Below, piece after piece: positions 4,322-52,313 of a stretch of 64,000 nucleotides of DNA. The stretch lies in assembly GCA_947561715.1 (NCBI GenBank), contig OX387199.1, positions 19,287,001 to 19,351,000 on the forward strand, in the 5' to 3' direction. The notes beneath the pieces were generated by a model. The model saw only the letters and a program-made list of their open reading frames with translations. It was not told where the DNA came from and searched no databases. The DNA is from Ascidia mentula. Taxonomy: Eukaryota > Chordata > Ascidiacea > Phlebobranchia > Ascidiidae. Both the position numbers and the translations under genes were made by a program. Position 1 is the first letter of the stretch, and each line of letters starts with the position of its first letter.

Positions 4322-7300
4322 ATGAAGCGAACACAAGAAGAAATAAACTTGCATCACCAGAAAGTGATGAATTTTTTAAACAAGTAAGTTTAATTAATGG
4401 AGATTTACTGAAGTTAAAATATTCATGTTTCAGTGACAGAAAAGAAACGAAACGATTTTGCAACAGAACACTTTGTTCCCAAGGAGAAAACTATTCAATA
4501 CATGATGCTGTTGTTTGTTCTATGTCAGATTATTTTAATGCTTTACTTGGTGTTGAGGTAAGTGTTTGTTATGTAGAAATAATATGAAACCTGAATGTTT
4601 GTCTTTAGTTGTCCCCTGTCCATAAATACATTGCTGCAATCAAGCAAACAATGTCATTTAGACAACAACAACAACAACTCTTTACTTTTTAAAATTAATT
4701 TAGTTTGGTGACAAAACTCATAGGTTATGTGGTATAATATATCAACAATTGAGGAACATACCATAATATTTTATACCTGTCTTTTATGAACATACGTACC
4801 CAGAGTTGTTCATCCCTTTAGTTTACAGCAGGCCTCCATAACATATGGCTCGATACCGACATCCAGCTCATGTTTTGACACAATTGGCTCAGTTGCAATA
4901 GCTTAGTCTAGTGTTTGTATATCTGATAAGCATTGGTTTAAGTTGTTACAATATTAAGGTTTAAATTTTTAAGATGTTAAGGTGTTTTTTGTTATTACTT
5001 TAATTACATTGGCTTAACTTTTGCAACTGTGCTAGAATGAAACCTATTAGATTGATTTATTTTTTGCTATGGCCCATGTGATATTTTGTATTTGAACAGG
5101 TCTGATGTATGTTATTTTTTGTAAATCACATACCATATTCCTTTACCAGCAAAGTTGTAATTTTTGTCAGTTCTTTAGACCAGATTGTATTTGTTGTTGT
5201 GATTGGTTAACTTTGTTTTCTTTCAGATGCGCGAGAAATATTCAGATTTCATCAAGGTTGACAATATTCCACCAAAAAGACTGGAAAGTGTATTGGATTA
5301 TATTTACACTGGTGATATTGAAGTAACAGAGAAAAATGTGTTGGAAGTGTTGGAAGATGCTGATTATACACAGATGAAAGGTATGTAAACGTTGCAAGTT
5401 TTGAGCTTCAGTGGTGTTAATGTGTTAAGAATGATCAAACCAACACATGTGTTCTACATGTATATCATTTTATTTGTCAACTACAACATTTTTTATATTT
5501 TAGGTTAATATTTTTGTGTTTGACTATTGTTAGTTTGATGTGATATATATTGATATGTTTGTACTGTGTAAAATGTGTTACAAAACAAATTATTTGTGAT
5601 TAATGGAGAAGTGAGCACAGATATTACTTCTGAATTAGGTGTGGCTGAACTTTGTTTTGTTCACACTTTCAGAGTTGAAGTCATTTTGTTGTCGAGTCAT
5701 CCTTAAAATGATTTCAACCGACAACTGTTTGAAGCTAAGAGCTTATGCTACTCGATACAATCTTGCTGATGTGGAAAAGAAAACAAACCAAATGATTGTT
5801 GATAACATTGCAACAGTTGTACAACATGATGATTTCATGCAACTTGATGTTGGTGATATGTCTGCAATCATCAAACAGAATAACAAAGGGGTTATTATGA
5901 TTAATTTAAATTTTGCTGCATACCTGCATTTAATGTTGTTTTATAAATATTTTAAACTTTTTGTTTTTCAGTAAAAAAATAATAATACCAAATTTTTTCA
6001 AAAAAATTATTATTTCTATATTTAAACAAGCTTAAATAGTGATTTAAACTCTGTGATGTTTCACCTTTCGATTCATGCTCTTGGTGTAAATTTAGTATTT
6101 GATGTAGTCACCGGTGACATTGAACACTTCACCGTTTGTTTAAACTGTTACTTGTTATTACATATCGATTGTTGAATGTAGATGGAAGAATCTGTTTTTA
6201 TTGGAATGGTTCGATGGGTCAATTTTAATCCTTCCCATCGAGAGGATTTGTTTGTGAATCTTTTCTCACAACTTGATCTTTCATCTATTTCCAACCACTT
6301 TATAACAACTACAGTTAGAAATGAAGTAAATTGTTTACAGTTAGTATAAATATAATGGGTTAGAGATTTTATTCCTTTTAGCCTCTTGTGAGAAGTAATA
6401 TGGATTGTGCCATTGCAGTTTTGGATGCTTTATCAACAAACATTGAAAAGCCAGGAGCAAGTGGAAAAGCAACTTCTGTAAAAAAAGGTAATATTGCAAA
6501 GCTGCAGACAGGGTGTGTACACGCACTGTTTCGACCTGTAAGGTCTCATCAGTGCAGCTGTTGAGTGGCACTGTGCTAGCTTTTACACTAGCAGGCACAC
6601 TAGTCTCCACTTTGTGGTACCTTTCGGTCAACTGCAGGGTACCCTATACTAGGTACCGAACAACAGAGACGACGAACCACTGTGGAGCGCACTATGGCCA
6701 AACGGATCTGTTTGGTAACCGATAGTGCAAAAGGCAAAAACACCAATACCACAAAGTGGAGACGAAAGGTACCACAAAGTGGAGACTAGTGTGCCTGCTA
6801 GTGTAAAAGCTAGCACAGTGCCACTCAACAGCTGCACTGATGAGACCTTACAGGTCAAAACAGTGCGTGTACACACCCTGTCTGCAGCTTTGGAATAATA
6901 TGGCTTTTTTTGCACATAAAGGTAATATTATTTATGAAATAATCCACCTTATTTATACAACCCTTGTAGTATTTGTTCTCCCAAAGCTTTAGGTTCCACT
7001 TAATTTCCCACTTCACAATTACTAATATTGCAAACATGTGGTCAGAATCCAGAGACAGTCAACTACCAACAAGTTAAGGATACAATTCTGTGGCCTGAGA
7101 TTAAACAAAAGTCCTAAAATAAAACTACTCCAAATGCAGAAAGATGTGCTTCATCATAACTTACAAAATGTGTTAGTTTCATAGCTGAATTTAAAAACTT
7201 AACTGAAGGTTGTTTAACGCAAATACAAACTCCAATGAATTTGGTTGATTCACGAAGCAACAACTTCCCCTAAATGGAAAATATGTTTCCATTGTTATCA

Positions 7301-9975
7301 CAATAATTATTTAATTTATACATACAAAAACCATAACAAGCAATGTTTATGTTGCAGATTTGTCAGGATTTCTTCTCATTGGTGGAGATAATTCAAAACG
7401 AGATTGTGTGAAATGGAATGTTACCACAAAACAACATGAACATTACCCAGTATGTACATTGCTTGCTGTCATATGGTTTTGCTTATTTAACATATTTTCC
7501 CATAAATGTACATGCGTTTTGTATGTGCAAGTAAATGTAAATTTGAAGTAAAGTTAGCAAGACAGCAAATGTCCAGTAGCATTCAGGATTAATGCAATAT
7601 TTGGCCACTGATAATTTTGTCTTAAATTTAATTGCACAAGAAAATGTAACAAACATGCCCTGGTTTAGTGTAACCTGTCAATGACTTAACAAAATATGCT
7701 CCAGAGTGAATCATGTTTTCTGTTATATGTTTTGAGATAGAGACTTTCTTTTATTTAGAGAAACATGTAAATCACTTTGTCTTAATGTTTAGTTTCATTG
7801 TCATCAAATTTTGTTAAGAAAATGATCACGGACAGAGTGAACTCAACTTCAGCCAAATTTGGTGAAAATGTTTATGTAATGGGTGGACATGGTCCAACAC
7901 AAAGTTGTGAGATGTTGAATTTGGAGGAAAGGAAAAACTGGATAAAAATTGCTGATTTATCGGAAGGTCGACGTTTCGCTGCATCTGCTGTTGTTGGAGG
8001 TTGGTGTGGTTATTTCTGAAATTGTTGTTTACTAAATCAGGGGCTGTTCCAGGAATAAAGGATTGGGGAAGCCCCCCTCACATATTGTCATAGCAATAAA
8101 AATTAACGCGGTGGCAGACAAAAGGTTTTGTTAATATTTATTTCCGTTAGTTACTAGTGTGTTTTGTGTGGTTTATGACTATCTTCTCATCTCTCAACCA
8201 ACTCATTCTTGTTGCTCACCATAACTTTTGTGAGTAATACCTCAGAGAAATTTTGTGAATTCTGCCATGACTGCATTTGCGAATTTTTTTTGTACTTTTA
8301 ACAGTATTACTGACACTTTACTGACAAGTTACCAATTCTTGAACAGAAAATTGTTCAACTATGTTTTTGGAAACTTATAGTAAATATTTGGAAAATATTT
8401 AGATGTTGATCAACAATTATAACTTTTGTAGACAACCTTGTTTTTACTAATTACAAACTAATTTAGATGACTTGTATCTCACGGGTGGTCTTGGAAACCA
8501 AGGAGCATTCTCATCAACTTTGTGTTATTCTGTACAAAAAGACAGATGGAGAAATAATTTCAACATGTTACAGCCAAGATATGGACATGGAATGGCTTCA
8601 ATTGACAGTAAGAATACACCTGAGTTCATTTTTGTATAGGATTAGCCTCATTACTGGGCCCAGGCCTAAATAGTTGGCATGCATCTGAAACAACAACATT
8701 ATTAACCAGAAACCATAAATTAAAGTAATCAGTAAATCCACGGTATTTACCCCAACAATATTCACTTTTGGACATGAAAATGTTGCGAAACGCCGACCTC
8801 AAACTTACCAGAAATGCAGGAAATATTCCATCTTTATTTTGTAGTTCTTTATGACATGAATTTTAACTTTAATATTGATTAATTTTAATTAAAACCTTGA
8901 TTTAAAGCTGATCGCTTACTGGTACGTGAAAAAACGCAGAGCTTACCTCAATGATTGTTACGTAACATTACAACATAATCGTGATATGACGTCACAACAA
9001 ATATTAACACAAGCGATTTTTCTTCAGATGTTTTGTTTTCTGTGGGCGGACGTGATGGCAGACAATTCTTACAATCATGTGAATTCCGCGATGTTCGTGT
9101 TGGAACCTCCACAAGAATCGCTTCTCTCAATGAAGCAAGATATCATATAGCATGTGAAGAAATTAAAGGGAAGATCTATGCAATTGGTTAGTGATGAAAA
9201 GTTAAGTTATAAAATTAACAGGAAGTGATTTTTTGAGAAATTTTATAAAATACAAATTCATATTCGTCACCGGTAAATGTATCACGTGATAAATATAATG
9301 GAGTTTCCTGAAAAGAATCCTAAACATAAAAACTGGTAGATATAACTATAAAGTATTAACCTAAAAACAATAAAAAGTTTTTCTTTAAATCTGACAGGAG
9401 GTTGGAATGGTCGTGCCTCCCTGCAAACGGTTAATGAATACGAACCTAGAGTCAACAAATGGAAATATGTTTCTCCTCTCCTAAAACCTCGTTGCCTTCA
9501 CTCTGCTTGTGTTATTGATGGGAGGATTTATGTTGTGGGTGGATTGGGGTAATAATTGATATTATGACGTCACTATAGTACACTGTTTCCCGTTTTATGT
9601 GAAAATGTAAATGTTGAGTAACTGGGACAAGTGGGATATACGATGTTATACTTGATCAACAACATGCAGAAAATGTTTGTTAAATTTAAACTTAAAACAC
9701 TTTGTATTATACAAGGTTGTATGTATGGTTTGGTTTAGTGGTGCAGGGGTCTGCGGGTGTACGTTGGTTTGTTTTTGTTAACTTATAATTTTTACTTAAA
9801 AAAAAATGTTGTAGAAAACTTGCCTGTGTTTGTTGTGTGTCTGATTCATAAAACTGTATCATGTTTGTTTTAAAGAATCACATCAGTTGAAGTTTACGAT
9901 CCAACCTCATATGTTTGGAAACATGCTTTTGATCTTGACAAACCAGTTGATTGGGCGACTGTTGTTGCTGTTTAA
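4322..9975 (+). CDS. BTB-BACK-Kelch protein (KLHL-like), copy 1
   Basis: Putative substrate adaptor of a cullin-3 ubiquitin ligase, a role known for the family. Twelve exons join in phase to 543 aa: 4322-4383, 4434-4557, 5227-5380, 5673-5890, 6182-6325, 6382-6487, 7358-7449, 7819-7999, 8467-8607, 9028-9186, 9398-9548, 9876-9975; AATAAA at 10,023. The BTB fold spans residues ~20-113 (IHDAVVCSMSDYFNALLGVE, then LESVLDYIYTGDIE), BACK ~114-235 (NCLKLRAYATRYNL, FIGMVRWVNF), followed by six Kelch blades with GG doublets (YVMGG, YLTGG, FSVGG, YAIGG, YVVGG). The N-terminus is shorter than usual before BTB. The start is the only Met giving the BTB frame. No lesion seen. The MITE in intron 6 sits at the donor. 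Kelch loop residues differ between copies. Confidence 0.88.
6497..6893. mobile_element. MITE type 2, ~130-bp terminal inverted repeats, in KLHL intron 6 (unit 1)
   Basis: Begins CAAAGCTGCAGACAGGGTGT and ends with the reverse complement; the arms match for about 130 bp, around a ~140-bp centre. The host sequence AAAGGTAATATT, including the splice donor of KLHL exon 6, occurs at 6484-6495 and again near 6917, which looks like a duplicated target. Present in all three units. Shorter, older relatives lie at ~11,613-11,720 and ~13,980-14,095. Confidence 0.8.
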
Positions 9976-12203
9976 TATGTTTCCATATTTGGGTGTAATA
10001 TTTAACTGAGATTGATCATCGGAATAAATGTTTTTATCCAAAATATCGTCTTTACCAATTGTTTCTCCTTTAACATCACTTTCTGAGTGATAGATTTTTT
10101 AATAAACGTCACTATAAATTTGTATATCAGTGTCTTCCATTTGTTGTGATATGGAAATAGTAATTATCCACGAAATAATTCCAATATTCCATTTGTTGTT
10201 TTCCAATTCAATCCTTACTTGATTCCTTGCAACCATAAAATTATGACATTGTTCAAACACTGGATGATAGAATTGTTTTTTCCTCAATACTCATGTTATA
10301 ATTTTATTTTTTAATTACTTTATCTTCATATTATAAGTGACGAATAATTTACTGTGAGTCATTTCTGCGCCTGCCTTGTCACGTGTGTGTGTGCTTGTTT
10401 GTTTCTTACTGAATGCATTCTGGCTCTGCTGCCAATTCATCTTTCAGAAACATCGTTTGAGTCGTGTTTCGCGCAGTTTATATGAAGAAGACTGGAGCGA
10501 TTTTCACGTTAAACGGAATTCTTCTGAAGCGCAATGTGCACTTTTGCCTAAATACAAAATCACACGCACCGTTTGTAATTTCGCTGTAGCGACTTAATTC
10601 TATTCTAATGCCGTTATTTGGGAAATAAATTTCCCAATGTTTGTTTCGTACAATTCAAGTTTCGTGCATATATCCTCATGGCAATGTTCAATTCCAAGTG
10701 CACTTGTTAAAAGTTTGGTGAAACAAATTTAATGTAGGATTCGGTTCGATTCCGAATAAATAATAACCTCGTTTTCTGGCTGATTACCTCAGGTTTGAAC
10801 TAAGTTGGCTGCATTTACTATTATCATTTACACCAACACTCAAACATAGCCAAGGTATCTTTTCCTATATTGCTATAATTTATACATTATTAAGTCGTGT
10901 TATTCAAATCGCTGGTCCGACATATGAAAAGACACCTATTATAGAGTCGTGTCGGCGATGCCTTTAAACTTTTTATCGTACAGTAAGCAACTAGTTACCC
11001 TTCCTTGGGATTTGTCATTAGACTGCATCAGGTGCTTTCCTATAAACCGTAGACTTTTCCACAAACTTACTCTCATATTTCAACATGCTTCTATTGGATG
11101 AGAAGCGTTAAAGGCACATGTTTAGGTTTCGACCAGAAGGCTTCGCTTTTTAAGTTACTGATCTGAAAGTCCAGTGGACAATTTAACAAACACAATGGAG
11201 AAAACCACTCCATTAAAATTTACTTTATCGAAAAACGCTAACCGGTTTTGGGAATCTTTAATATGAACAATATTGCCCATATAGGCTAGCTGATGTAAAA
11301 TTTGCATGGTGGAAGTTTCGATCCTCAATAATTCTCAATCCACAATAAACGAATATAGGCGTGGTTGTATAAAAATTAATACATTGTTGTGTTACCATAT
11401 AACCTCAGTATTGTCTCTCCAGGCCAGGGAATAATGTGGTCCTCGGCGTTTGGCGACAATGGTACGCGGGTAAAATATTCCTGTGTATTGCTTTGTTCGC
11501 AATGTACACAAGGTGTTTCCAAGTCTACCTCGTGTTCAAATACTTCGGGCCCAAGGTGTACATGATGAGGAAAATGGTGAGTCGGAACGGATATTTTTAT
11601 CTTGTGTTAGCTGCAGACATATGGCCACTGTTTCGACCTGTCAGGTCACATCAGTGCAGCTTGGTTTAAAGTTTTGACGGCAAGATCGTCCATAATCACA
11701 TCAAGGTCGAAAGCGTGGCCTTCTGACGGCCGCTCACATAATTCATATCATTTTCATGTTTATATATTTTTAACTTCGAACAGACGTTGTTAAGGAGCAC
11801 GTGTGTCTTGCGCAAGTTTGTTACTTAGCATTTGTCAACAGTCGTTAAAAACACGGGTCTCCTATGCATAGACCACGACGAAGACACCGCACAAACCAGT
11901 CGAACAATAACAGGATGCGCAGAATCTACATTTCCGATTGACAAATTCGTGCGATGTTTTCTGCACCTAGGGCGTGAAACAAAAACATTCCAGACCTACT
12001 TGGGCGAAACAAGAAAAACTTTGTAAACAACGGAAGACTAAAAGCAATTGAAAAAAATGATAGCCAGAGAACTTAGCATTTTGTCAACAGCAATAATTTT
12101 TTAGGCTTTTATCGCTTCTTCGACATCTGCTTAAACTTCCTCATCGTTTGTGCCACACCGAAAAAACGTTTCGCATAGCGAAGCAGGATCGCCCCACTGT
12201 GCT
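9976..12203. other. Long spacer between KLHL and SLC1 remnants
   Basis: I see the KLHL 3' end and AATAAA (10,023), a partial relative of MITE type 2 at ~11,613-11,720, and no exon I can support. Open frames at 10,376-10,597 and 11,436-11,677 lack an ATG in good context or any recognisable domain. SLC1 exons for transmembrane segments 1-3 would be expected in or before this stretch and were not found. Confidence 0.5.
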
Positions 12204-12400
12204 GGCCACAATATACCCCGTAAAGCCACTGAGCTCCTGTATAGCTCTCAGTTGGTAGAGCGTTGGGCCTGGTTAGCCCAGGGTCGTGAGTTCAAACCTC
12301 ATCGGGAGCTTGATTTTTCAGATCTCGCTCTGACTTGTCGGGAAAAGTGGCTGATCCAGCTTGGCTGCAATGCCTTGGCTGCGAAGCCTTGTGAACCATA
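12204..12400 (+). mobile_element. tRNA-derived SINE, unit 1
   Basis: A tRNA-like head (acceptor AGCTCCT / GGGAGCT, D-arm GCTCTCAGTTGGTAGAGC, a TGGGC...GCCCA anticodon stem with loop CTGGTTA, T-arm GTTCAAAC) is followed by a conserved tail with ACTTGTCGGGAAAAGTGGCT and paired GCTTGGCTG/CCTTGGCTG motifs. The same head plus tail occurs at 30,047-30,243, 32,957-33,141 (minus strand) and 63,508-63,700. The shared non-tRNA tail marks a SINE and not a tRNA gene. The D-arm here has an insertion. Confidence 0.8.
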
Positions 12401-12436
12401 TAACATAATAATATATCCGAAATTCTTTCTATTCAG

Positions 12437-14492
12437 GAACTTGTTTCCGAAAAACTTGGTGGAAGCGTGGTTTCGAGTTGTAAGTAATTCCAAGCTAAGT
12501 TTTTGCCTAGAAAAGACAAAATAGAATATTTTCAGGACACGACAAAAGTAATCTTGGTCAAACAACCTTCCAACAGTTCTTTCAATTCCTCATCAAATTT
12601 CACCACAAAAACGATTAAAACGTTAGAAACTATAAACGGATCAAATGCTTTGGGTATTTCCACAACAAAAACTATGAAATTATGAAACATATTCACTCAT
12701 GTTTTTGAAGGTTTGATAACATTTTGCGTCATGTTGGGAATCGCTCTTGGAAAACGAAAGAAACCTGAAGGGGAAATTTTGAATCGTTTCTTTAACGAAT
12801 TTTTCAACGTTTTCATGGTCATTATGATGAATATTATGTGGTAAGATAAATATTCTGTTTCATCATTGCTCATCGGCTGTTGCTACACTAAAAGCAACAA
12901 CCAAGTTTTGCCTTATGATAGAAAAACAGTAATTGAAGTAAAGTGGTAGCAAACAGTCTGCTGAAGTCGATGAAAAGTAATATCTAAATATAACTTAGGT
13001 ATTCACCGATTGGAATTTGCAGCCTGATAGCTGGAAACTTACTCCAAGTTGGTGACATGCTTTTCACAATGAGGACCCTTGGTCTTTACTTGGTGAGGAT
13101 GCCAACCTCTGTTGAACGCACCCCTCAACTTTTTGCTTTTCAGACCACTGTTATCATCGGCCTTTTGATACAATCCATGTTGGTTTATTCCGCTGTATAC
13201 TGGATTGCTACCAGAAAAAATCCCCTTAGATTGTATATACGAGCTCTCTTCAAGCAATTCTAACCATGATCGGGACAACTTCAAGGTGAGAATGCGATCA
13301 TAGAAATCAAAAACATAAAATGTCGTGAAACCTTGCTGTGATTGAATTAACTTGAAGACATTTTGATATTATTGTTGAGATGTCGATATTACTTGTGTTG
13401 ATATTATAACCGTTTGTCGGCAAATTTTTCCTTCACCATCTCTTAAAATAATTGGAATGCAACTGTTACCTTACATTCAGGAAGCGATTTTTTATGGCAC
13501 CCGTTCTTTCGTGTACTGTTGCAAACCCCCCTTATACTAAGTTTTCTTGTAACCACAGTGCCGCAACCTTACCTGTCACCATGCATTGCGCGGAAATAAA
13601 CTTGAAGATCGACAAACGATTCACTCGTCTTTTTCTTCCTCTCGGAGCCACAATTAACATGGACGGGACAGCTCTGTTCCAAAGCGTTGTGGCAGTTACC
13701 GTAGCTCAACTTAACGGGATTTCACTATCAGTGGGTCAAATCCTCACCGTCTGGTAAGTGTGTTTACACGCGAAATACATGCTTCACTTTGATTATTTTC
13801 CCGACATTAACTGGGAAAAACGGCACATGAAACAAACAATTAATGCGAGCAGAAATTCGGTCGTTTGATTTAAATGCGTGGTGCTGATTAACTGACAATA
13901 TTGATTAAAGTGCACGTCTTACTCGTTTACGTCCATAATACTGATGACGGTGATTGTATAGTCACCACAAAGTTGAAGTCTTTGCTTGGTCGTTTGGTCA
14001 GCAAAGTCGTCTGAAAGTCACACCAGCAGCACTGATGATACCTTTTAGGTCGAAACATTGGCCATCTGTTTGCAGCTTACACAGAGTCCGTAATACTGGT
14101 GTTAATGTTTCCGCGGCGAAATCCTCACTCAGTTGTCCTATCTTTAAGCATCACAGGTTCATTGGCGTCGGTTGGTGCAGCAGCCATTCCAGGTAGCGGT
14201 ATTGTGGTCGTGCTTTTCGTCCTTCAATCAGTCGGGTTACCGGTGGAAACCATTGGGTTACTTTATACAATCGACTGGTTTTTGTAAGTATTTACTCGTT
14301 AAAGTGTTAGTATGCAATTCTATACGTTTTTTCGTAATTATTATAAGAGAACGGATTCGTGGCATTGTAAACATTCTTGGTGACGTCACTGGAGTTTGCG
14401 TCATTTCTCATCTAAATCGGGACATTGCTGACGTCAACAATGAGCTGCTTGAAGCATTGGGTGAAGATGAGGATCGAGAGAGTGGCTTGTGA
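12437..14492 (+). pseudogene. SLC1-family amino acid transporter, C-terminal half, copy 1 (frameshifted)
   Basis: Exons 12,437-12,479, 12,536-12,653, 12,711-12,840, 12,999-13,092, 13,144-13,285, 13,559-13,753, 14,149-14,283 and 14,348-14,492 encode, in order, RNLFPKNLVEAW, an Asn/Thr-rich extracellular loop, a helix ending [33 protein letters not shown], the transporter signature [11 protein letters not shown], the SVGAAAIPGSG hairpin, DWFLERIRGIVNILGD and a TGA. This matches the region of EAAT/ASCT proteins from the second extracellular loop to the C-terminus, which forms the substrate and sodium site. Compared with copy 2, a 2-bp insertion in exon 13,144-13,285 (after LRLY) shifts the frame to a TAA. 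Exons for the first three membrane helices were not found. Probably dead. Confidence 0.8.
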
Positions 14493-20803: not shown

Positions 20804-20835
20804 TAAAAGTATCTTCCGCTGAAAGTACGGTCCTT

Positions 20836-30243: not shown

Positions 30244-30279
30244 TAACATAATAATATATCCGAAATTCTTTCTATTCAG

Positions 30280-33141: not shown

Positions 33142-33312
33142 TGGCGTATGATCGCTTACGTACAAAATGTAATAGGCCGAAACCGGCGTTTGGATACCGC
33201 TACACACATGAAGTACTTGTGAATGAAACTCGTCCTTTTTTGTATGAAAAAACGGAGGTGAAATAAAACGTTTTACAAAATATAGGTTTAAAAACAAAAC
33301 GAATTTCTGAGT

Positions 33313-33405
33313 ATAAACAGACTGGCCCATATTGTTATTAACACTGTCATGTTAAAATAAGACGTTTCGACAAAAACTTATGTCATCATCAGTTTCAAAA
33401 CGAAT
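33313..33405. mobile_element. Short transposon-end fragment
   Basis: Absent from unit 1. Contains CTGGCCCATATTG, then TAAGACGTTTCGACAAAAACTT and a CATCATCAGT motif. A related stretch lies at 59,608-59,690 (CTGGCCCATATTG ... TAGACGTTTCGGCAAAAAATT ... CATCGTCAGT), so this is a dispersed repeat. Confidence 0.55.
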
Positions 33406-34267
33406 TTGTTTCAGAAAATTTGTGTGATTAAGTACCGGATGATCGCTAGCGTGCAAAGTGTAATATCCCGAAACCAGCGTGAACAGCAGAACCGAAAATT
33501 TGTCATGTCACGTTACGGATGTATTTGCACTATACGTATATACGTCACGTACGGTATTGAACGTGCATCCGAGACGCAGCCAACTTTATGAAAAGCGAAC
33601 CCACCAGCTTATGTCTTCTAAATTCGCGTATGTCACCCTTATCCGAGGCAACCACGAGCTTTCTCCTAAGAAACAAGAAAGTTATTGATGGTTGCGTAAA
33701 ACGCTGGTCAGAATGGTTAATATGGGACTTACCATAGGAACGCAGTTAGACCAGAGCGGTTGCCGATCGAAGTGAAAGGTAGTAATATTCACCGAAACGT
33801 GAGATGCAGCGGCAGCAACAACTTTTTAAAAAGAAGTGCATCATTATAATTAACGGAAAAAGGGCGGTCATTGGCCAGGTGTAGTTACTAATTTCTTGGC
33901 TTCATACAGCATTGCGTGTGACCTGCTTGCGTACTTAACAAGACCACAAACCGCTGTTTTGCATATCTCGTGTAAATAACAACGATCATGGTGTAAGTAA
34001 ACCTTTTCCAACAGAAAAAAACATTGTTATACTTGTCCGTTATTACAGCAACCGACTCAAGATTGTTTTGTACTTGTGGCAATTTGGATTGAACAATTGA
34101 GAAGCATGCGTTGAAACGGGCAAACTCACTTGTTGATAGATCGACTTACTTGTTGATAGATGTTTTATATTACGAAGAAAATTTTGTTTCTCGTTACATT
34201 TTTTGATTTTCTTGAATGTCAGCACAGGTACAACGTTAACTTAAAGTCGATTGATTGTTGCCGAGAC

Positions 34268-37200
34268 ATGAAAATCTTGTGTTTTTTTGTCGTGTATTTC
34301 CTGCTAGACAACCGCAATTTTGCTCTAGGTAAGTTGCACTTAATCCCACAATGGCGCCAATTATTGTGTCTCAAAGCTGTGCACCGCAAACTGTGTTCAA
34401 ATTATTTCGCGGGACTGCGAATTTGTGCGATTGAATTTAAATGATTTTTTTTTATCATTTCAATTATATGGCAACCGCAATGTGAGGGATACATCTCCAC
34501 TTAGGATGTACCTGTGTTTAAAATTCGTTCTCAATATTTGATGGGCTATTACAGAGAAATCTTGAGTATAGAAAACCGAAATAAATCAAATGTTTTTGTG
34601 AACTGTGGGTTTTTGAAACAAAACGCTTTGGTGCGTAAACGGTTTCGTTTCGTTCGTCTTTTTTAGTGGATTCCAAGATATAAGGATGCTTATTTTTTGC
34701 CTCTTTGAATAGTTGCACAAATAAATATTTTACTTTTAGCAGGGACATGCAGCGGCAGCGTAAATGTGGGCGACAACAAACGGAGCGATTCAAAATACAT
34801 CACGGTCATTTTCGAGAAAGCGTTCTGTCAAATTCCGTCGCTTATCGAGACGGCAGTTTTTGGGGAATCTGTGTATACAGACACTTTTCAAGCTGAAGTA
34901 AACGCCACTGGCAAATGCGGCTTTGCTGCAGTGGTGACCAAAGGCGAACTTCCGCCGACCTGGTGGCAAACAGGGGTGGTTCTTAACTGGACTGCTAGGT
35001 TTGGTGAGTAACTTATGCGTTAAATGGACGGTTTGGTTTTAAGAGTTTACTTTTCTACAGAGTTGCCTTCGGGTAAAAACGGGTCGACGACGACTCCACA
35101 ATTTAAGGTAGCCGGGTGCGGCCAAGCTAACTCAACATGTTCTGGTAAGATTTCTGGGAAGAATGCGTTACTGCAAATTTAGCTATACATAGTCATAACT
35201 TAACTTCTTCCGCCTTATTGTCATAGCATTAGATAGTTTCGACAACAGTTGACATCATAGACGACAAATCCACTTTTTAGTCGGGTGCTTTGCCCGCGGC
35301 AGACGAAATAGCGATGATTTGTAATTGTTTGAACTAATTTTAGACGGTCTGGTTTGCGAGGCAAAGCAACGTGGATGTCCCGAGAACTCGTCGTGGAACA
35401 GTTCAGCCTGTGTTTGTCTTTCAGGATTTGCCATGAACGGTTCAACGTGCCAAGGTAACATTTAAAACAGCAGAAAACAAATGTTCAGCCTTAGAGGTTT
35501 TGTGCTTGCTGAATTAACATCAATTTTGTCTTAATCCTTTTAAAATATTTATGGGTTAATATTCGGACTCGACAATCCTGACATAGGAGAGAATTGGGGT
35601 TCTTAATCCCGCCAATTCTAATAAACCCACAAGGGGAAATAAGGAATATGTACATGCGCATATAGGTCTTCAATGCCTGTAATTTGTTTTGTGTTCTGTT
35701 GCCAACCTTATGGAAAACAATGATAAAGTTGTAAGGAATTACGTATAGAGACAACTCCATAATTTCGTCAGGCCCACATATTCATCCCCCACAGCAAGTC
35801 ACAGCCGCCATTCCTTCACACGAAGGAATGTGAAACTGCACAGTTGCGGTTGAGACCATAATAGGGAAATCATCATGATGTAGTAGCGTTACGCCCTGAC
35901 GTTGGTGCGATGGCCTAATCACACATATTTAGACAACAACGTTGTTATGAGTGTGAAAATTTAACTTTCTTGACCTTCCGTTTAGTGGGTTCTAAAATTT
36001 TATTGTTTCGTTCGCTGTCTGTAGCCAAATATTTCATGTTTTATTCAATAGTCACTTTATCCAATACGTTCTTTCACAGATATCAACGAGTGCTCATCGG
36101 GTACTCACATTTGCAACGAAAACGCCACATGCACAAATCGTAAAGGTTCGTTTTCCTGTTCATGCAAGACTGGCTTCAGTGGAGACGGTGTCGCTTGTGT
36201 TGGTAAGTCCCTGCATAGATTTGCATATCACTGTATATTCACGTGTTGGGTTTTCTACAGACATTAACGAGTGCCAAAACTCACCAAGCATTTGTCAATT
36301 GCATGCGACATGCTCCAACACCGTCGGGAGTTATTCTTGCCAGTGTCAAACTGGTTTCACTGAAATGGGATCTCAGTGCACAGGTACAAACTGTTTATAT
36401 TATAAGGCCGCAGCGATATTTTACCTTTGCGTAATTATAACGTTCTCTGACTATTATGTTTCATGGGTTTTAAATGTAGTTTAGTATGCGTTGAAACTCT
36501 TTCTCTGTGCTAAGGTAAACGGAAACGCTTACTATGTTTTCATGCCCAAATTTGATAAAAAGTTTAAAATTGTATGATTTTAGTGGGTAAAATGGTATCG
36601 ATGCGACACACTACTGGTTTCGCGTTAAGGTAACGTTATGCGATAACGCAATTTACTGCTTTGGCTGCAAGTTCAAGATAAAAACTTACATTTTGTTCTG
36701 TTACCTTGTTTTGTAGTGCCAAAAAAAAGTTGACAATTCATTTGATTGATTTAAAGGTTTAGTCCTTACCAAAAAAAGGTGTTTGTATTGACAGGGGACC
36801 AGTTGCAAGACGAAAAAATAATCGTATCATTGTAAATTTTGTACAATGAGTCTTATACGTTTCAGATGTTGACGAATGCTCAGATGGATCGCACAACTGT
36901 CATCAACACGCTTCGTGTACCAATGGACTCGGTACATACTCTTGCTATTGCAAGTCCGGCTTTACAGGAAATGGTCGCGACTGCAGTGGTAAGACTAACA
37001 TTACAAAATATCACGATGCTATTTGTGAACTAGAGCAAACAAATTTGCGTTTATCCATAAAAATCTACTTCCCTATTCAATGTATAGTTATGGATGTAAG
37101 TTGCTTAAATGATTTTGAATAATGCACTTCCATGGACGTACAGTCTTTGTACAATAAATTGACTACCACGCTGTGAAATTATATCATAATTTAGAGGAGA

Positions 37201-37558
37201 CCAGCATACAATACGTTTCTCTTCCTCGAATGCCCTGACATTAATAGAGACGTATTAACACCATGTGGTTGAATTGAAATGGCAATAACATTTGAAGCGA
37301 AATGAGGATATTAGAAAAGGAAATGTCACCGTCTACGATTGAGTGAAATGGGGTTGTTGTTGGGTCAAGCGCGGACATAGCATGTGAACCCTGATATTGT
37401 GTCTTTCAGACTTAAACGAATGCATGATGAACAACCACGGTTGTCACGATAACGCCACATGCGTCAACACACAAGGAAACTACACTTGCGTCTGCCTTGA
37501 CGGCTTTGCAGGAAATGGAACATACTGTGAAGGTGGGAAGGGTTTTGTAGCTAACTGA
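34268..37558 (+). CDS. H-lectin/EGF gene C: secreted H-type-lectin-like plus EGF protein (intact copy)
   Basis: Eight exons give 344 aa: 34,268-34,328, 34,743-35,003, 35,061-35,144, 35,344-35,454, 36,080-36,202, 36,261-36,383, 36,866-36,988, 37,410-37,558; stop 37,556-37,558, AATAAA 37,598. Residues 1-20 are a signal peptide (MKILCFFVVYFLL). Residues ~21-107 resemble the H-type lectin fold of snail agglutinins: SGSVNVGD start, Cys-Gln-Ile-Pro before a strand, EVNATGKCGFAAVV, and the last strand VVLNWTARFG. A short linker, one EGF-like module with Asn-Ser-Ser sites and four calcium-binding EGFs (DINEC, DINEC, DVDEC, DLNEC) follow. All internal introns are phase 1. H-type lectins of known function bind GalNAc; the ligand here is unknown. 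No lesion seen; this is the only complete copy in the window. Confidence 0.75.
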
Positions 37559-37964
37559 GGAATTTGGGCGAAGTTTTTCATTAAATTGAACTAACGAAAT
37601 AAAAAGTGGTCCTTGTGAGGTTGGTGTGGCCATTGGTATATGTGGTGACGCTATTTTACCACAAATATTATACCGGATACACCACGGGATGCCAAGGGGA
37701 TTGTTTATCCTCCATGCAGTTAAATTTGTCACTGTCTTTAATTTGTCACTGTGATTCAATGCATCTGAATCCTGGTACACTCTTCTGAGTCCTGGATCAG
37801 GAATTGGTGTCCATATGCATCAAACACATTCAAAATTATAAAAATTTATTAGATGAGTCGGCAAATATATGCCAAACTTATCAGACTGTGCACACAAATT
37901 CCATACAACTAACCGAATATTTTACCAACGTGTGCAATAACTTGTGCTTATGGACGTAAATTAA

Positions 37965-38259
37965 TTTGACCGACAATCGCACACTTGCCATGCTAACGCA
38001 ACTTGCCTGAACCTGCATGGAAGATTCCGATTCTCCTGCTGCCAAAGACAGCTTGGAGACGGGCATAACTGCTACGGTGAGACGACAGATATCAACCACC
38101 AAAAAACCTCTCTATGACGAACGCGAGACTGATGATGCGACGTCACCGTTTCATGTGATAATTTTGTTAACAACCACATTTACTGGCAATCTTTATCACA
38201 AAAAGACTGGTACTGGTGTTGCCAATTTGCCTTCAGGTGTTGTTTGTATAATTTACTAA
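37965..38259 (+). pseudogene. Relic fifth EGF exon, unit 3
   Basis: Same relic as in the other units. An extra A in the run at 38,101-38,106 shifts the frame relative to units 1 and 2. Confidence 0.45.
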
Positions 38260-38734
38260 ATCCACAGCAAGCGGTTAAAATAGCAGTTTGACAGTTGCGA
38301 AAAAGTAAGGACAAAATTACAGAGACTTTTGAATCAAAGTGGTCGGCTCCGTGGCAACCGTCAACGTCAGTCAAGAGCTTCGACAAAATGCCAAAAGAGA
38401 AAACATGACAACCTCATATAACAGTATTACGAAAGATTTTTTGCAATCAACAAAATACTATAGCAATATGTAGAGGGTATTTGATTAAGTTTAGGGTCTT
38501 TAATTGTAACCTATGTACAGTTAGGGCCTGGTTAGAGCCACACATAAGCCTTGATGTTTTCCTACTGTGAATTTTTGCATTGGTGACATTTTTCATTACG
38601 TTACAATGCTATGAGCTTTGCGCATTGTATTTCGTGACTCTATGTCCATGATCAGAAATAATGATAATAATCGCAAACTTCCCAACAAAGTACGGAAAAA
38701 CTAGGTTGTCGAACATGCCAGGAAAATACTACTT

Positions 38735-38962
38735 CACCGGGTCACAAAGTTTTTCTAAACTTGACCCACATATAAGTCTGTGTAAAACAGAAATCTGTGA
38801 GAATTTTAATGATTAGGCGTAAACAGGGCCACCACCTGTTACTTTTGTTTATAAATTTGAGTTGAAATACTACACGAAATCGTAGCGTTAATATTCGCAC
38901 AGATTTCTATGTTACATAGGCTTATGTGTGGATCAAGTTTAGAAAAACTTTGTGACCCGGTG
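38735..38962. mobile_element. MITE type 1, unit 3
   Basis: Orthologue of 2836-3063. Followed here by a type 3 MITE and a second, partial type 1 copy. Confidence 0.72.
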
Positions 38963-38972
38963 TAAAAAGTAT

Positions 38973-39189
38973 ACGCAATCTACACAATCTATACCCAGAC
39001 TGACTTTTTACCTGAACTATATCTTTTCATAGGCCCATAGGAAATAAATTAAATATCTATAAACCATGGATCTAGCGCCATCTTTCGTCCAACACACGCA
39101 ATGTACGTTGCTCAGAACCAACGCAATCTGTTCGAAAATGGCGGGGGCATTAATTCAAAGATTGCGTAGATTGCGTAGATTGATTGCGT
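38973..39189. mobile_element. MITE type 3 (ends ACGCAATCTAC), private to unit 3
   Basis: Left end ACGCAATCTACACAATCTA, right end AGATTGCGTAGATTGCGTAG with a final GATTGCGT: imperfect terminal inverted repeats around a ~160-bp centre without coding potential. Not present in units 1 and 2. Confidence 0.6.
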
Positions 39190-39331
39190 GATCAGGCGTG
39201 AACAGGGCCACAGCCTGTTATTTTTGTGTATAAATTTGACTTGAAATACCACACGAAAACATTTGCACAGATTTCTATGTTACATAGGCTTATATGTGGA
39301 TCAAGTTTGGAAAAAACTTTGTGACCCGGTG
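39190..39331. mobile_element. Partial MITE type 1 (right part), private to unit 3
   Basis: Repeats the right ~140 bp of MITE type 1 (AACAGGGCCAC...CCTGTTA to GTGACCCGGTG) with more divergence than the full copy just upstream. The left part is replaced by MITE type 3, so MITE 3 and the second type 1 copy probably arrived as a block. Confidence 0.6.
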
Positions 39332-39364
39332 TAAAAGTATCTTCCACTGAAAGTACGGTCCTTC

Positions 39365-40452
39365 TAAAATGTGCTCGTGCAACCATGTGTCGCTATGTGT
39401 AAGCATTTGAAGTTATGTGTCGCTATGTGCAACTATGTGGAGCTATGTGTCGCTATGTGCAACTATGTGGAGCTTTGTGCAACTATGTGAAGCTATGTGT
39501 CTCTATGTGCAAATATGTGGAGCTATGTGCAACCATGTGGAGCTATGTGCAACTATATGAAGCTATGTGTAACTGTGTGAAGCTATTTGGAGCTATGTGC
39601 AACTATGTGAAGCTATGTGTCGCTACGTGAAGCTATTTGTCGCTACGTGAAGGTACGTGGAGCTATGTGCAAGTATGTGGAGCTATGTACTCGTTGCCTC
39701 CAACCCTACTTTACATCAACTGCTGAAGTACAGCCTGAAGCGAAAGTAATTTTCTTATCCAATATAATCAAATAATTAGCAGTTGATGTAAAGTAGGGTT
39801 GGAGGCAACGAGTACATAGCTCCACATCCTTGCACATAGCTCCACGTAGCTTCACGTAGCGACACATAGCTTTACGTAGCGACACATAGCTTCACATAGT
39901 TGCACATAGCTCCAAATAGCTTCACACAGTTACACATAGCTTCATATAGTTGCACATACCTCCACATAGTTGCACATACCTCCACATAGTTGCACATAGC
40001 TCCACGTAGCTCCACATAGTTGCACATAGCTCCACATAGCTCCACATAGTTGCACATAGCTCCACAGAGTTGCACATAGTTGCACATAGTTGCACATAGC
40101 TCCACATAGCTCCACATAGCTCCACATAGCTCCACATAGTTGCACATAGCGACACATAGTTCCACATAGCTCCACATAGCTTCACATAGTTGCACATAGC
40201 TCCACGTAGCTCCACATAGTTGCACATAGCTCCACATAGTTGCACATAGCGACACATAGCTCCACATAGCTCCACATAGTTGCACATAGCGACACATAGT
40301 TACACATAGCTCCACATAGCTTTACATAGTTGCACATAGCTCCACATAGTTGCACATAGCTCCACTTGCACATAGCTCCACATAGTTGCACATATCGACA
40401 CATAGTTGCACATAGCTCCACATAGCGGCACATAGTTGCACGAGCATTTAAA
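39365..40452. mobile_element. Foldback element with 10-bp-repeat arms, unit 3
   Basis: Left arm 39,365-39,688 (324 bp), right arm 39,814-40,452 (639 bp). Same centre and ends as in units 1 and 2, but the arm lengths are reversed: the right arm is now twice the left. Confidence 0.8.
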
Positions 40453-40758
40453 AACCGATCACACAATGAAATAGCTCTCGTGCAATGTTTGAATAATTAA
40501 AAGCATCAGTTTGTTTGAAAATTTATGTGTTACTCAATATTTGATGGTCAAAACAAATTTTGAATTAATTTAACTGAAAAAATCAATTATTACTTTCTGA
40601 TCACTCAAGCGTGGTATTGGGTGGTTCCCCTCCGGTGTGACATTAGTTTCGTTCTCGGAAATGCTGCAAAAAAATAAAAGAAGTTGTGTGCAAAACTTTA
40701 GGATTGTACACTAGACCCGGTATTTCATTGACTGTCAGTTTAACTTTTTGTCTTCATA

Positions 40759-43700
40759 ATGAAGCGAACACAAGAAGAAATAAACTTGCATCACCAGAAA
40801 GTGATGAATTTTTTAAACAAGTAAGTTTAATTAATGGAGATTTACTGAAGTTAAAATATTGATGTTTCAGTGACAGAAAAGAAACGAAACGATTTTGCAA
40901 CAGAACACTTTGTTCCCAAGGAGAAAACTATTCAATACATGATGCTGTTGTTTGTTCTATGTCAGATTATTTTAATGCTTTACTTGGTGTTGAGGTAAGT
41001 GTTTGTTATGTAGAAATAATATGAAACCTGAATGTTTGTCTTTAGTTGTCCCCTGTCCGTAAATACATTGCTGCAATCAAGCAAACAATGTCATTTAGAC
41101 AACAACAACAACAACTCTTTACTTTTTAAAATTAATTTAGTTTGGTGACAAAACTCATAGGTCATGTGGTATAATATATCAACAATTGAGGAACATACCA
41201 TAATATTTTATACCTGTCTTTTATGAACATACGTACCCAGAGTTGTTCATCCCTTTAGTTTACACCAGGCCTCCATAACATATGGCTCGATACCGACATC
41301 CAGCTCATGTTTTGACACAATTGGCTCAGTTGCAACAGTTTAGTCTAGTGTTTGCAAATCTGATAGACATTTGTTTAAGTTGTTGCAATGTTAAGGTTTA
41401 AATTTTTAAGATGGTAAGGTGTTTTTTTGTTATTACTTTAATTACATTGGCTTAACTTTTGCAACTGTGCTAGAATGAAACCTTTTAGATTGATTTATTT
41501 TTTGCTATGGCCCATGTGATATTTTGTATTTGAACAGGTCTGATGTATGTTATTTTTTGTAAATTACATACCATATTCCTGCACCAGCAAAGTTAAATTT
41601 TTCTCAGTTCTTTAGACCAGATTGTATTTGTTGTTGTGATTGGTTAACTTTGTTTTCTTTCAGATGCGCGAGAAATATTCAGATTTCATCAAGGTTGACA
41701 ATATTCCACCAAAAAGACTGGAAAGTGTATTGGATTATATTTACACTGGTGATATTGAAGTAACAGAGAAAAATGTGTTGGAAGTGTTGGAAGATGCTGA
41801 TTATACACAGATGAAAGGTATGTAAGTGTTGCAAGTTTTGAGCTTCAGTGGTGTTAATGTGTTAAGAATGATCAAACCAACACATGTGTTCTACATGTAT
41901 ATCATTTTATTTGTCAACTACGACATTTTTTATATTTTAGGTTAATATTTTTGTGTTTGACTATTGTTAGTTTGCTGTGATATATATTGATATGTTTGTA
42001 ATGTGTAAAATGTGTTACAAAACAAATTATTTGTGATTAATGGAGAAGTGAGCACAGATATTACTTCTGAATTAGGTGTGGCTGAACTTTGTTTTGTTCA
42101 CACTTTCAGAGTTGAAGTCATTTTGTTGTCGAGTCATCCTTAAAATGATTTCAACCGACAACTGTTTGAAGCTAAGAGCTTATGCTACTCGATACAATCT
42201 TGCTGATGTGGAAAAGAAAACAAACCAAATGATTGTTGATAACATTGCAACAGTTGTACAACATGATGACTTCATGCAACTTGATGTTGGTGATATGTCT
42301 GCAATCATCAAACAGAATAACAAAGGGGTTATTATGATTAATTTAAATTTTGCTGCATACCTGCATTTAATGTTGTTTTATAAATATTTTAAACTTTTTG
42401 TTTTTCAGTAAAAAAATAATAATACCAAATTTTTTCAAAAAAATTATTATTTCTATATTTAAACAAGCTTAAATAGTGATTTAAACTCTGTGATGTTTCA
42501 CCTTTCGATTCATTCTCTTGGTGTAAATTTAGTATTTGATGTAGTCACCGGTGACATTGAACACTTCACCGTTTGTTTAAACTGTTACTTGTTATTACAT
42601 ATCGATTGTTGAATGTAGATGGAAGAATCTGTTTTTATTGGAATGGTTCGATGGGTCAATTTTAATCCTTCCCATCGAGAGGATTTGTTTGTGAATCTTT
42701 TCTCACAACTTGATCTTTCATCTATTTCCAACCACTTTATAAGAACTACAGTTAGAAATGAAGTAAATTGTTTACAGTTAGTATAAATATAATGGGTTTA
42801 GAGATTTTATTCCTTTCAGCCTCTTGTGAGAAGTAATATGGATTGTGCCATTGCAGTTTTGGATGCTTTATCAACAAACATTGAAAAGCCAGGAGCAAGT
42901 GGAAAAGCAACTTCTGTAAAAAAAGGTAATATTGCAAAGCTGCAGACAGGGTGTGTACATGCACTGTTTCGACCTGTAAGGTCTCATCAGTGCAGCTGTT
43001 GAGTGGCACTGTGCTAGCTTTTACACTAGCAGGCACACTAGTCTCCACTTTGTGGTACCTTTCGGTCAACATCGATCTGCAGGGTACCCTATACTAGGTA
43101 CCGAACAACAGAGACGACGAACCACTGTGGAGCGCACTATGGCCAAACGGATCTGTTTGGTAACCGATAGTGCAAAAGGCAAAAACACCAATACCACAAA
43201 GTGGAGACGAAAGGTACCACAAAGTGGAGACTAGTGTGCCTGCTAGTGTAAAAGCTAGCACAGTGCCACTCAACAGCTGCACTGATGAGACCTTACAGGT
43301 CAAAAAAGTGCGTGTACACACCCTGTCTGCAGCTTTGGAATAATATGGCTTTTTTTGCACATAAAGGTAATATTATTTATGAAATAATCCACCTTATTTA
43401 TACAACCCTTGTAGTATTTGTTCTCCCAAAGCTTTAGGTTCCACTTAATTTCCCACTTCACAATTACTAATATTGCAAACATGTGGTCAGAATCCAGAGA
43501 CAGTCAACTACCAACAAGTTAAGGATACAATTCTGTGGCCTGAGATTAAACAAAAGTCCTAAAATAAAACTACTCCAAATGCAGAAAGATGTGCTTCATC
43601 ATAACTTACAAAATGTGTTAGTTTCATAGCTGAATTTAAAAACTTAACTGAAGGTTGTTTAACGCAAATACAAACTCCAATGAATTTGGTTGATTCACGA

Positions 43701-46420
43701 AGCAACAACTTCCCCTAAATGGAAAATATGTTTCCATTGTTATCACAATAATTATTTAATTTATACATACAAAAACCGTAACAAGCAATGTTTATGTTGC
43801 AGATTTGTCAGGATTTCTTCTCATTGGTGGCAATAATTCAAAACGAGATTGTGTAAAATGGAATGTTACCACAAAACAACATGAACATTACCCAGTATGT
43901 ACATTGCTTGCTGTCATATGGTTTTGCTTATTTAACATATTTTCCCATAAATGTACATGCGTTTTGTATGTGCAAGTAAATGTAAATTTGAAGTAAAGTT
44001 AGCAAGACAGCAAATGTCCAGTAGCATTCAGGATTAATGCAATATTTGGCCACTGATAATTTTGTCTTAAATTTAATTGCACAAGAAAATGTAACAAACA
44101 TGCCCTGGTTTAGTGTAACCTGTCAATGACTTAACTAAATATTCTCCAGAGTAAATCATGTTTTCTGTTATATGTTTTGAGATAGAGACTTTCTTTTATT
44201 TAGAGAAACATGTAAATCACTTTGTCTTAATGTTTAGTTTCATTGTCATCAAATTTTGTTAAGAAAATGATCACAGACAGAGTGAACTCCACTTCAGCCA
44301 AATTTGGTGAAAATGTTTATGTAATGGGTGGAGATGGTCCAACACAAAGTTGTGAGATGTTGAATTTGGAGGAAAGGAAAAACTGGATAAAAATTGCTGA
44401 TTTATCGGAAGGTCGAAGTTATGCTGCATCTGCTGTTGTTGGAGGTTGGTGTGGTTATTTCTGAAATTGTTGTTTACTAAATCAGGGGCTGTTCCAGGAA
44501 TAAAGGATTGGGGAAGCCCCCCTCACATATTGTCATAGCAATAAAAATTAACGCGGTGGCAGACAAAAGGTTTTGTTAATATTTATTTCCGTTAGTTACT
44601 AGTGTGTTTTGTGTGGTGTATAACTATCTTCTCATCTCTCAACCAACTCATTCTTGTTGCTCACCATAACTTTTGTGAGTAATACCTCAGAGAAATTTTG
44701 TGAATTCTGCCATGACTGCATTTGCGAATTTTTTTTGTACTTTTAACAGTATTACTGACACTTTACTGACAAGTTACCAATTCTTAAACAGAAAATTGTT
44801 CAACTATGTTTTTGGAAACTTGTAAATATTTGGAAAATATTTAGATGTTGATCAACAATTATAACTTTTGTAGACAACCTTGTTTTTACTAATTACAAAC
44901 AAATTTAGATGACTTGTATCTCACGGGCGGTGATGGAAACCAAGGAGCATTCTCATCAACTTTGTGTTATTCTGTACAAGAAGACAGATGGAGAAATAAT
45001 TTCAACATGTTACAGCCAAGATATGGACATGGAATGGCTTCAATTGACAGTAAGAATACATCTGAGTTCATTTTTGTATAGGATTAGCCTCATTACTGGG
45101 CCCAGTCCCAAATAGTTGGCATGCATCTGAAACAACAACATAATTAACCAGAAACCATAAATTAAAGTAATCAGTAAATCCACGGTATTTACCCCAACAA
45201 TATTCACTTTTGGACATGAAAATGTTGTGAAACGCCGACCTCAAACTTACCAGAAATGCAGGAAATATTCCATCTTTATTTTGTAGTTCTTTATGACATG
45301 AATTTTAACTTTAATATTGATTAATTTCAATTAAAACCTTGATTTAAAGCTGATCACTTACTGGTACGTGAAAAAACGCAGAGCTTACCTCAATGATTGT
45401 TACGTAACATTACAACATAATCGTGATATGACGTCACAACAAATATTAACACAAGCGATTTTTCTTCAGATGTTTTGTTTTCTGTGGGCGGACGTGATGG
45501 CAGACAATTCTTACAATCATGTGAATTCCGCGATATTCGTGTTGGAACCTCCACAAGAATCGCTTCTCTCAATGAAGCAAGATATGGTTTAGCATGTGAA
45601 GAAATTAAAGGGAAGATCTATGCAATTGGTTAGTGATGAAAAGTTAAGTTATAAAATTAACAGGAAGTGATTTTTTAAGAAATTTTATAAAATACAAATT
45701 CATATTCGTCACCGGTAAATGTATCACGTGATAAATATAATGGAGTTTCCTGAAAAGAATCCTAAACATAAAAACTGGTAGATATAACTATAAAGTATTA
45801 ACCTAAAAACAATAAAAAGTTTTACTTTAAATCTGACAGGAGGTTGGAATGGTGGTCGTGACCTGCAAACAGTTAATGAATACGAACCTAGAGTCAACAA
45901 ATGGAAATATGTTTCTCCTCTCCTAAAACCTCGTTGCCTTCACTCTGCTTGTGTTATTGATGGGAGGATTTATGTTGTGGGTGGATCGAGGTAATAATTG
46001 ATATTATGACGTCACTATAGTACACTGTTTCCCGTTTTATGTGAAAATGTAAATGTTGAGTACCGTAACTGGGACAAGTGAGATATACGATGTTATACTT
46101 GATCAACAACATGCAGAAAATGTTTGTTAAATTTAAACTTAAAACTCTTTGTGTTATACAAGGTTGTATGTATGGTTTGGTTTAGTGGTGTAGGGGTCTG
46201 CGGGTGTACGTTGGTTTGTTTTTGTTAACTTATAATTTTTCTTAAAAAAAATGTTGTAGAAAACTTGCCTGTGTTTGTTGTGTGTCTGATTCATAAAACT
46301 GTATCATGTTTGTTTCAAAGAATCACATCAGTTGAAGTTTACGATCCAACCTCAGATGTTTGGAAACATGCTTTTGATCTTGACAAACCAGTTTATAATG
46401 CGACTGTTGTTGCTGTTTAA
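40759..46420 (+). CDS. BTB-BACK-Kelch protein (KLHL-like), copy 3
   Basis: Twelve exons, 543 aa: 40,759-40,820, 40,871-40,994, 41,664-41,817, 42,110-42,327, 42,619-42,762, 42,820-42,925, 43,803-43,894, 44,264-44,444, 44,909-45,049, 45,470-45,628, 45,840-45,990, 46,321-46,420. All junctions in phase, no lesion. BTB/BACK are nearly identical to copies 1 and 2. Private Kelch residues: GGDGP, GRSYA, GGDGN, ARYGLA, GGWNGGRDL, GGSR, PVYNA. The first Kelch exon (GGNN) matches copy 2. Same MITE in intron 6. Expected to act as a cullin-3 adaptor; target unknown. Confidence 0.88.
42935..43337. mobile_element. MITE type 2 in KLHL intron 6, unit 3
   Basis: Orthologous to 6497-6893 and 24,318-24,721. Confidence 0.78.
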
Positions 46421-52299: not shown

Positions 52300-52313
52300 T
52301 TCTGTTTGTTGCC

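Follow-up and report, generated by a model that had tools for sequence, protein, structure and literature searches.

Ascidia mentula, an ascidian, carries in one 64,000-nucleotide stretch of its genome (C52:19287001-19351000, referred to here as the window, the C-numbers being contig labels of this genome) a tandem triplet of genes for BTB-BACK-Kelch proteins, copies A, B and C. We propose, with a probability of roughly 0.6, that these genes belong to a diversifying, exon-exchanging Kelch recognition repertoire of about 100 copies, which would have two outputs and would most likely serve innate immunity. Foremost among the evidence, some 20 hypervariable residues match in sequence alignments the ligand side of KEAP1-type propellers, where the codons bear the mark of diversifying selection.

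At the core of the proposed mechanism is a single recognition module: exons 7-12 encode a six-blade Kelch propeller, whose framework is conserved along with the heads to which it is joined. Two types of head are shown by co-occurrence: BTB-BACK of the KLHL type, an expected CUL3 adaptor, in about two thirds of the strong propeller copies, and a RIPK1-like kinase in about one third. Every propeller would bind a peptide or protein of its own; in the BTB-BACK members the target would then undergo CUL3-dependent ubiquitination, and in the kinase members binding would set off a RIPK-like signal. Tentatively, the system could go further and consist of intracellular combinatorial receptors, in which a single pool of exchanged Kelch exons would feed both ligase adaptors that destroy their target and RIPK-like kinases that sound the alarm or bring about cell death, and a pocket could be passed from one class to the other. 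If true, CUL3 adaptors would act as a recognition repertoire, and a RIPK-like kinase would use the Kelch propeller as part of a receptor. The A. mentula family is a concrete candidate: its binding surface can be tested, two outputs are predicted, and there are signs that exchange takes place between these. No description of this Kelch family was found in titles and abstract openings of the literature, a coverage that leaves out most subscription papers and preprints.

The KLHL triplet and its variable pocket

The span of 4322..46420 given for the triplet by the preliminary description, which had been made from the window alone, is exact: the start codon of copy A stands at 4322 and the stop codon of copy C ends at 46420. 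Intron ends read AG/GT throughout the 12-exon models of all three copies (Table 1). On copy A, Pfam matches BTB (7e-19), BACK (4e-16) and Kelch_1 (3e-35), all above cut-off and in that order; its BTB-BACK part gives a full-length alignment to KLHL3 and KLHL11, six GG motifs with six blade arginine (or equivalent) positions account for six Kelch blades, and the alignment to KEAP1 spans the whole propeller. Judged by domain content, the BTB-BACK genes are members of the KLHL family.

Differences among the three copies are as uneven as first described, with 24 variable positions in 274 Kelch residues (270-543) against 3 in 269 N-terminal ones (208, 228 and 262; Fisher p=3e-5). When sorted by hand, 20 of the 24 lie one to six residues after a GG motif or one to three after the blade arginine or its equivalent, the four outside these loop positions being 385, 430, 473 and 523. 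The indels and multi-base swaps reported earlier correspond to one whole-codon deletion (468 in copy B) and several multi-base swaps. Introns are indeed nearly identical: three-way variable sites make up 2.1% of the intron sequence from exon 1 to exon 6 and 1.5% of that from exon 6 to exon 12, compared with 2.5% in the 3′ flank, 0.5% in the N-terminal coding sequence and 4.6% in the Kelch coding sequence.

To describe the pocket, 28 positions were taken (second G +1, +3 and +6; Arg +1 and +2; in the last repeat only +1), a rule based on what we take to be the contact pattern of KEAP1. In copies A, B and C these 28 codons receive 16 of the 24 replacements and none of the six synonymous Kelch changes (Fisher p=5e-13), a p-value that, like the others for the pocket, is descriptive, because the rule was set after the variable sites and the family entropy ranking had been seen. 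A test less tied to these data took 13 KEAP1 residues from the accessible part of a published text, eight of which interact with Nrf2 peptide motifs, the other five being ligand or docking-site residues; Val369 and Gly371, placed on the bottom side by the same text, were excluded, and the KEAP1 sequence was checked against deposited chains (PMC12266349). Tyr334, Arg380, Asn382, Tyr572 and Phe577 fell in alignment gaps. In the family alignment, the columns of all eight alignable residues are variable (mean entropy 2.12 vs 0.28 bits), and six of these eight vary among A, B and C.

The preliminary description had named as its test a ratio of nonsynonymous to synonymous change (dN/dS) above 1 at the loops, and this is what was obtained: 13 at the pocket codons of the triplet and 5.0 over a wider set of loop codons. 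Pairwise values are 13.2 for the pocket, 0.37 for the framework and 0.50 for BTB-BACK, with bootstrap ranges of 3.4-16, 0.11-1.17 and 0-1.26, respectively, for the ratio of the proportions of nonsynonymous and synonymous differences (pN/pS). It had also been expected that intronic and synonymous changes would not cluster with the replacements. For introns this stands; synonymous codon changes are denser in the Kelch part too (six, against one before it), yet none of them touches a pocket codon. Because of that zero out of six, a mutation hotspot without selection is disfavoured, even if larger gene sets show slightly more synonymous diversity close to the pocket.

A family with two kinds of head

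The genome search covered 195.8 Mb in 79 contigs, slightly less than the 196,975,169 bases and 95 scaffolds given for the published assembly in the accessible part of its report (PMC11109543). Searching with the BACK exon gave 117 matches, all 148 candidates having been scored, and Kelch exon 10 lies downstream of every one of the best 72 (at least 77% identity); the loci combining the two are found mainly at C1:0.65-0.97, 1.19-1.79 and 26.8-27.1 Mb. At least 135 matches were obtained with Kelch exon 10, from 150 of 175 candidates scored. Upstream of the 109 strongest of these, on the same strand and within 12 kb, there is a BACK exon in 70 cases, a kinase in 34, neither in five and both in none, in a comparison that used 134 of the 135 exon-10 rows, 44 of the 136 kinase rows and 94 of the 117 BACK rows. 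Conversely, Kelch exon 10 is downstream of 40 of the 44 kinase matches compared. The original idea of copies selected for different targets on a shared head is upheld as to selection on the pocket and proves too narrow in scope, the triplet being a small outlier of a family of about 100 copies; its restriction to a ligase is likewise too narrow, since about one third of the strong Kelch copies stand behind a RIPK-like kinase and not behind BTB-BACK. Cullin-3 binding, and a different target for each copy, are predicted.

Further KLHL tiers, whose BACK exons share about 35-78% identity with those of the window copies, occur at C1:1.00-1.09, 2.25-2.27 and 3.01-3.06 Mb.

Matches to all 12 exons in order were found at 19 of 24 BTB-class loci, the exceptions being L013, L016, L027, L030 and L031. 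A working set of 22 genes, 19 from the genome and the three from the window, was drawn from 27 BTB-class rows by dropping L016 (no credible match to Kelch exons 8-12 within 10 kb), L027 (incomplete sequence), L030 (no match to exons 1-3), L031 (divergent, with no match to the first exons) and L032 (exon 8 partial); L013, whose sequence stops short of exon 12, was retained, as were rows that have gaps in the loops. All pocket strings are distinct, in the 22 BTB-class genes, in the eight kinase-class genes and in the 30 combined. Across the 22 genes mean entropy reaches 1.39 bits in the pocket columns, against 0.21 in the remaining Kelch columns and 0.10 in residues 1-234; 19 Kelch columns exceed 1.5 bits, of which 14 belong to the pocket and the others (281, 419, 464, 466 and 467) to GG loops. 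At the other end of the protein, M63-R64-E65 of the BTB domain is unchanged in 22/22 and aligns with M-S-E of KLHL3; we take these residues to be the phi-X-E motif of CUL3 substrate adaptors.

These genes look intact. Splice sites are in place at 430 of 446 checkable positions (37 more being uncheckable), the stop codon is where expected in 21 of 21 BTB-class genes, and the gene rows used contain no in-frame stops. A pseudogene array is accordingly disfavoured for the genes that were read. An assembly artefact or collapsed haplotypes are disfavoured as well, the copies being intact with different pockets and the triplet lying on one contig at a spacing of about 18 kb; the assembly was made from HiFi reads and has a quality value (QV) of 64.9, according to the accessible part of its report (PMC11109543).

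In the kinase-headed class, loci L034 and L035 have a kinase first, then Ser/Pro-rich frames, then Kelch exons 7-12. In L034, splicing the glycine-loop exon to five linker exons and on to Kelch exon 7 gives one uninterrupted reading frame; the linkers are symmetrical exons of phase 1, which is what the corresponding BTB-class junction requires. On the joined frame from kinase through linker to exon 7, Pfam gives Pkinase (8e-42) as the sole match, with no death, CARD or ankyrin domain. Read by eye, the kinase has a GQGSYGRV glycine loop, AVK with the catalytic lysine and GDFG, and its HRD motif reads HLD. RIPK1 and RIPK2 are the closest sequences in the PDB (best match RIPK1 at 3e-23, the top 13 rows RIPK1, then mostly RIPK2); in A. 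mentula, Kelch exons follow the kinase. The propellers of this class vary at the same positions as those of the BTB class, with an entropy of 1.26 vs 0.22 bits over the seven C1 loci; L035, on another chromosome, is omitted from the seven-locus counts.

RIPK-like kinase relatives at about 40% identity were also seen at C2:0.8-3.3, C69:19.28-19.62 and C70:6.77-6.93 Mb, with 136 of 363 candidates scored. One of the C69 copies is followed, at L042:2902-3702, by an open frame that resembles TPR (a weak match in Pfam), so the RIPK-like kinase may carry other C-terminal modules; on the minus strand of L042, between the kinase and this frame, open frames judged by eye resemble retroelement polymerase and integrase.

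With which known systems might such a family be compared? It shares its domain order, six Kelch repeats and a phi-X-E type motif with the CUL3 adaptors KLHL3, KLHL11, KLHL12 and KEAP1. Vertebrate KLHL genes, however, are mostly conserved single genes, whereas A. mentula has about 70 copies with very similar heads and different pockets. Nematode MATH-BTB and F-box adaptors, whose substrate domain is under positive selection, likewise form large clustered E3-adaptor families with a conserved ligase-binding head and a diversifying substrate domain; unlike the A. mentula genes they use another substrate domain, and we know of no sharing of that domain with a kinase head. Teleost finTRIM and NLR-B30.2 proteins place one fast-evolving recognition domain in an E3 ligase family and in an innate signalling family, with B30.2 and NLR there, and the Kelch propeller and RIPK-like kinase in A. 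mentula. Since neither MATH nor F-box nor B30.2 is among the Pfam matches of copy A, the A. mentula system lies outside the MATH-BTB/F-box and TRIM/NLR-B30.2 families.

A lineage-specific BTB-BACK-Kelch expansion likewise exists in the termite Zootermopsis, with 37 KLHL10-type genes against 10 in the other termite; the accessible part of that study links it to spermatogenesis and does not mention pocket-directed selection (PMC4348803). This tie to male fertility speaks for an alternative that we consider unlikely, namely reproductive or self/non-self recognition, where gamete, sperm-competition or allorecognition conflict would select the repertoire; pocket diversity of this kind would suit self-labels too, but BTB-BACK and RIPK1-like kinase heads would be better suited to signalling inside the cell than to recognition at its surface. 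A conflict in which the adaptors would target proteins of intragenomic parasites, be they mobile elements or endogenous viruses, is suggested by general analogy, and we think it quite improbable.

Selection, exon exchange and competing explanations

The pattern seen in the triplet extends to the larger gene sets. Pairwise dN/dS is 3.13 for the pocket, 0.72 for the framework and 0.25 for BTB-BACK in the 22 BTB-class genes (bootstraps of this set drew on 8 of the 22), and 3.64 for the pocket and 0.88 for the framework in seven kinase-class genes. A codon model fitted to the 22 genes gives an omega of 3.59 for the pocket, 0.67 for the framework and 0.27 for BTB-BACK; fixing omega at 1 costs 4.9 log units in the framework and 31.5 in BTB-BACK. 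In a custom site scan, 15 Kelch sites have a posterior probability (PP) above 0.95, and 12 of them are pocket sites.

Could relaxed constraint or neutral drift among the duplicates produce the same picture, if gene conversion kept the remainder alike? The framework dN/dS lies just moderately below 1 in the larger sets, apparent exchange is extensive, and among A, B and C synonymous change is denser in Kelch than in BTB-BACK, all of which would fit. Yet pN in the pocket of the triplet, at 0.24, is more than ten times the pairwise intron divergence (0.9-2.0%), omega=1 gives a fit 15.3 log units poorer for the pocket (lnL, the log-likelihood, of -1084.13 vs -1099.41), and the reading frames, like most splice sites, are intact, which makes drift highly improbable.

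Exchange itself was read from identities calculated with pocket codons excluded. Exons 10, 11 and 12 are 90-92% identical between the two classes, the same as within the BTB class, whereas exons 7-9 are 64-81% identical between classes vs 91-95% within; around exons 10 and 11, similarity between loci continues through the intron. Over the 22 genes, distances in exons 10, 11 and 12 are uncorrelated with those in exons 1-5 or with one another (all p>0.2). Distances in exon 6, exons 7-8 and exon 9 correlate with those in exons 1-5 (p 0.002-0.006), no correlation appears between exons 7-8 and exon 9, and, as an exception, exon 6 correlates weakly with exon 10 (r=0.22, p=0.02). On these comparisons, exchange of exons 10-12 among copies and between the BTB and kinase classes is well supported.

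The same exchange between loci would also agree with directed diversification of the pocket codons, by targeted mutation or templated exchange, with selection merely filtering the outcome. Third bases are frozen at some highly variable sites (always T at 447 and 494, always C at 421), and 39 of the 51 pocket codons of A, B and C recur at the corresponding site among 27 other genes. Low synonymous divergence alone, however, already predicts frozen third bases, the third base does vary at sites 280, 324 and 371, and 12 of the 51 codons are absent from the 27 other genes; we regard this mechanism as very unlikely. Set against the adenine-templated codons expected for a target of diversity-generating retroelements, some pocket sites are NNT or NNC and others are not, in a comparison made with no search for a template or reverse transcriptase.

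A number of points tell against a selected, two-output repertoire. On the side of sampling, the genome represents one haplotype of one individual, and the copy counts are lower bounds because 150 of 175 candidates were scored. As for the gene models, the 16 of 446 splice sites that do not read AG where expected are all exon 11 or 12 acceptors, with edges in length-variable loops. The L034 model has two junctions with GC donors and no first exon was found for it; it is fitted and not independent, because its splice sites were chosen to fit the kinase and the reading frame, and the kinase and Kelch parts could be separate genes in some loci, L034 being the one modelled across the junction. With regard to selection, the framework and BTB-BACK bootstrap ranges of the triplet extend above 1, BTB-BACK sites 113 and 127 also exceed a PP of 0.95, and the framework, whose dN/dS is 0.7-0.9 in the larger gene sets, is under moderate constraint. 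Since exons recombine, the site scan and codon model, which depend on a tree, are approximate; the pairwise dN/dS is tree-free, but its pairs are non-independent. Synonymous diversity in the larger set is 0.06-0.08 within three codons of the pocket vs 0.02-0.045 beyond, so part of the pocket signal may be linked exchange, and the lack of correlation among exons 10-12 may come partly from the few informative sites in each exon. Least certain of all is the selecting agent: pathogens or parasites, in preference to reproduction or genome conflict, are suggested by analogy.

Exon 6, the BACK-Kelch linker (residues 235-269), is variable as well in the 22 genes (pS 0.31, dN/dS 0.38). Its synonymous divergence is several times that of the neighbouring exons, and it may for this reason be older or separately exchanged.

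The duplicated segment and other features of the window

Self-comparison of the window shows that the first unit of the duplication carrying the triplet (1-15027) matches 17797-32869 at 95.7%, and that a third unit extends from about 35.9 to 47.8 kb. Each unit carries a KLHL gene and EGF-like exons (Pfam EGF_CA), and units one and two also hold an SLC1-type transporter (Pfam SDF). Long minisatellites lie just 5′ of each KLHL copy, at about 3009-4035, 20841-21828 and 39372-40446; they have spacing steps of 10 bases, stay open in several frames, and match one another in both orientations.

Table 1. Coordinates of the KLHL genes, their parts and the duplicated segment in the window.
Feature	Position	Strand	Remarks
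KLHL copy A	4322..9975	+	12 exons, 543 residues, BTB-BACK-Kelch; splice-consistent model
Copy A, exons 1-6, constant head (BTB, BACK, linker)	4322..6487	+	3 replacements in 269 residues among A, B and C
Copy A, exons 7-12, six-blade Kelch propeller with hypervariable pocket	7358..9975	+	gene model
KLHL copy B	22141..27794	+	12 exons, 542 residues
Copy B, exons 1-6, BTB-BACK and linker	22141..24308	+	gene model
Copy B, exons 7-12, Kelch propeller	25186..27794	+	gene model
KLHL copy C	40759..46420	+	12 exons, 543 residues
Copy C, exons 1-6, BTB-BACK and linker	40759..42925	+	gene model
Copy C, exons 7-12, Kelch propeller	43803..46420	+	gene model
Segmental tandem duplication	1..47756		self-comparison of the window; spacing about 17.8 and 18-18.6 kb

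Beyond the triplet, a single-exon open frame of the FAD-linked oxidase type, presumably D-lactate dehydrogenase-like, occupies 52296-53774 (FAD-oxidase_C 8e-63), and at 61389-61844 a short tandem repeat that reads RGLYTFLQA runs into a leucine-rich-repeat frame. Elsewhere in the genome, COX1 gives a sensible translation with the mitochondrial code of ascidians, in which AGA and AGG supply many of its glycines.

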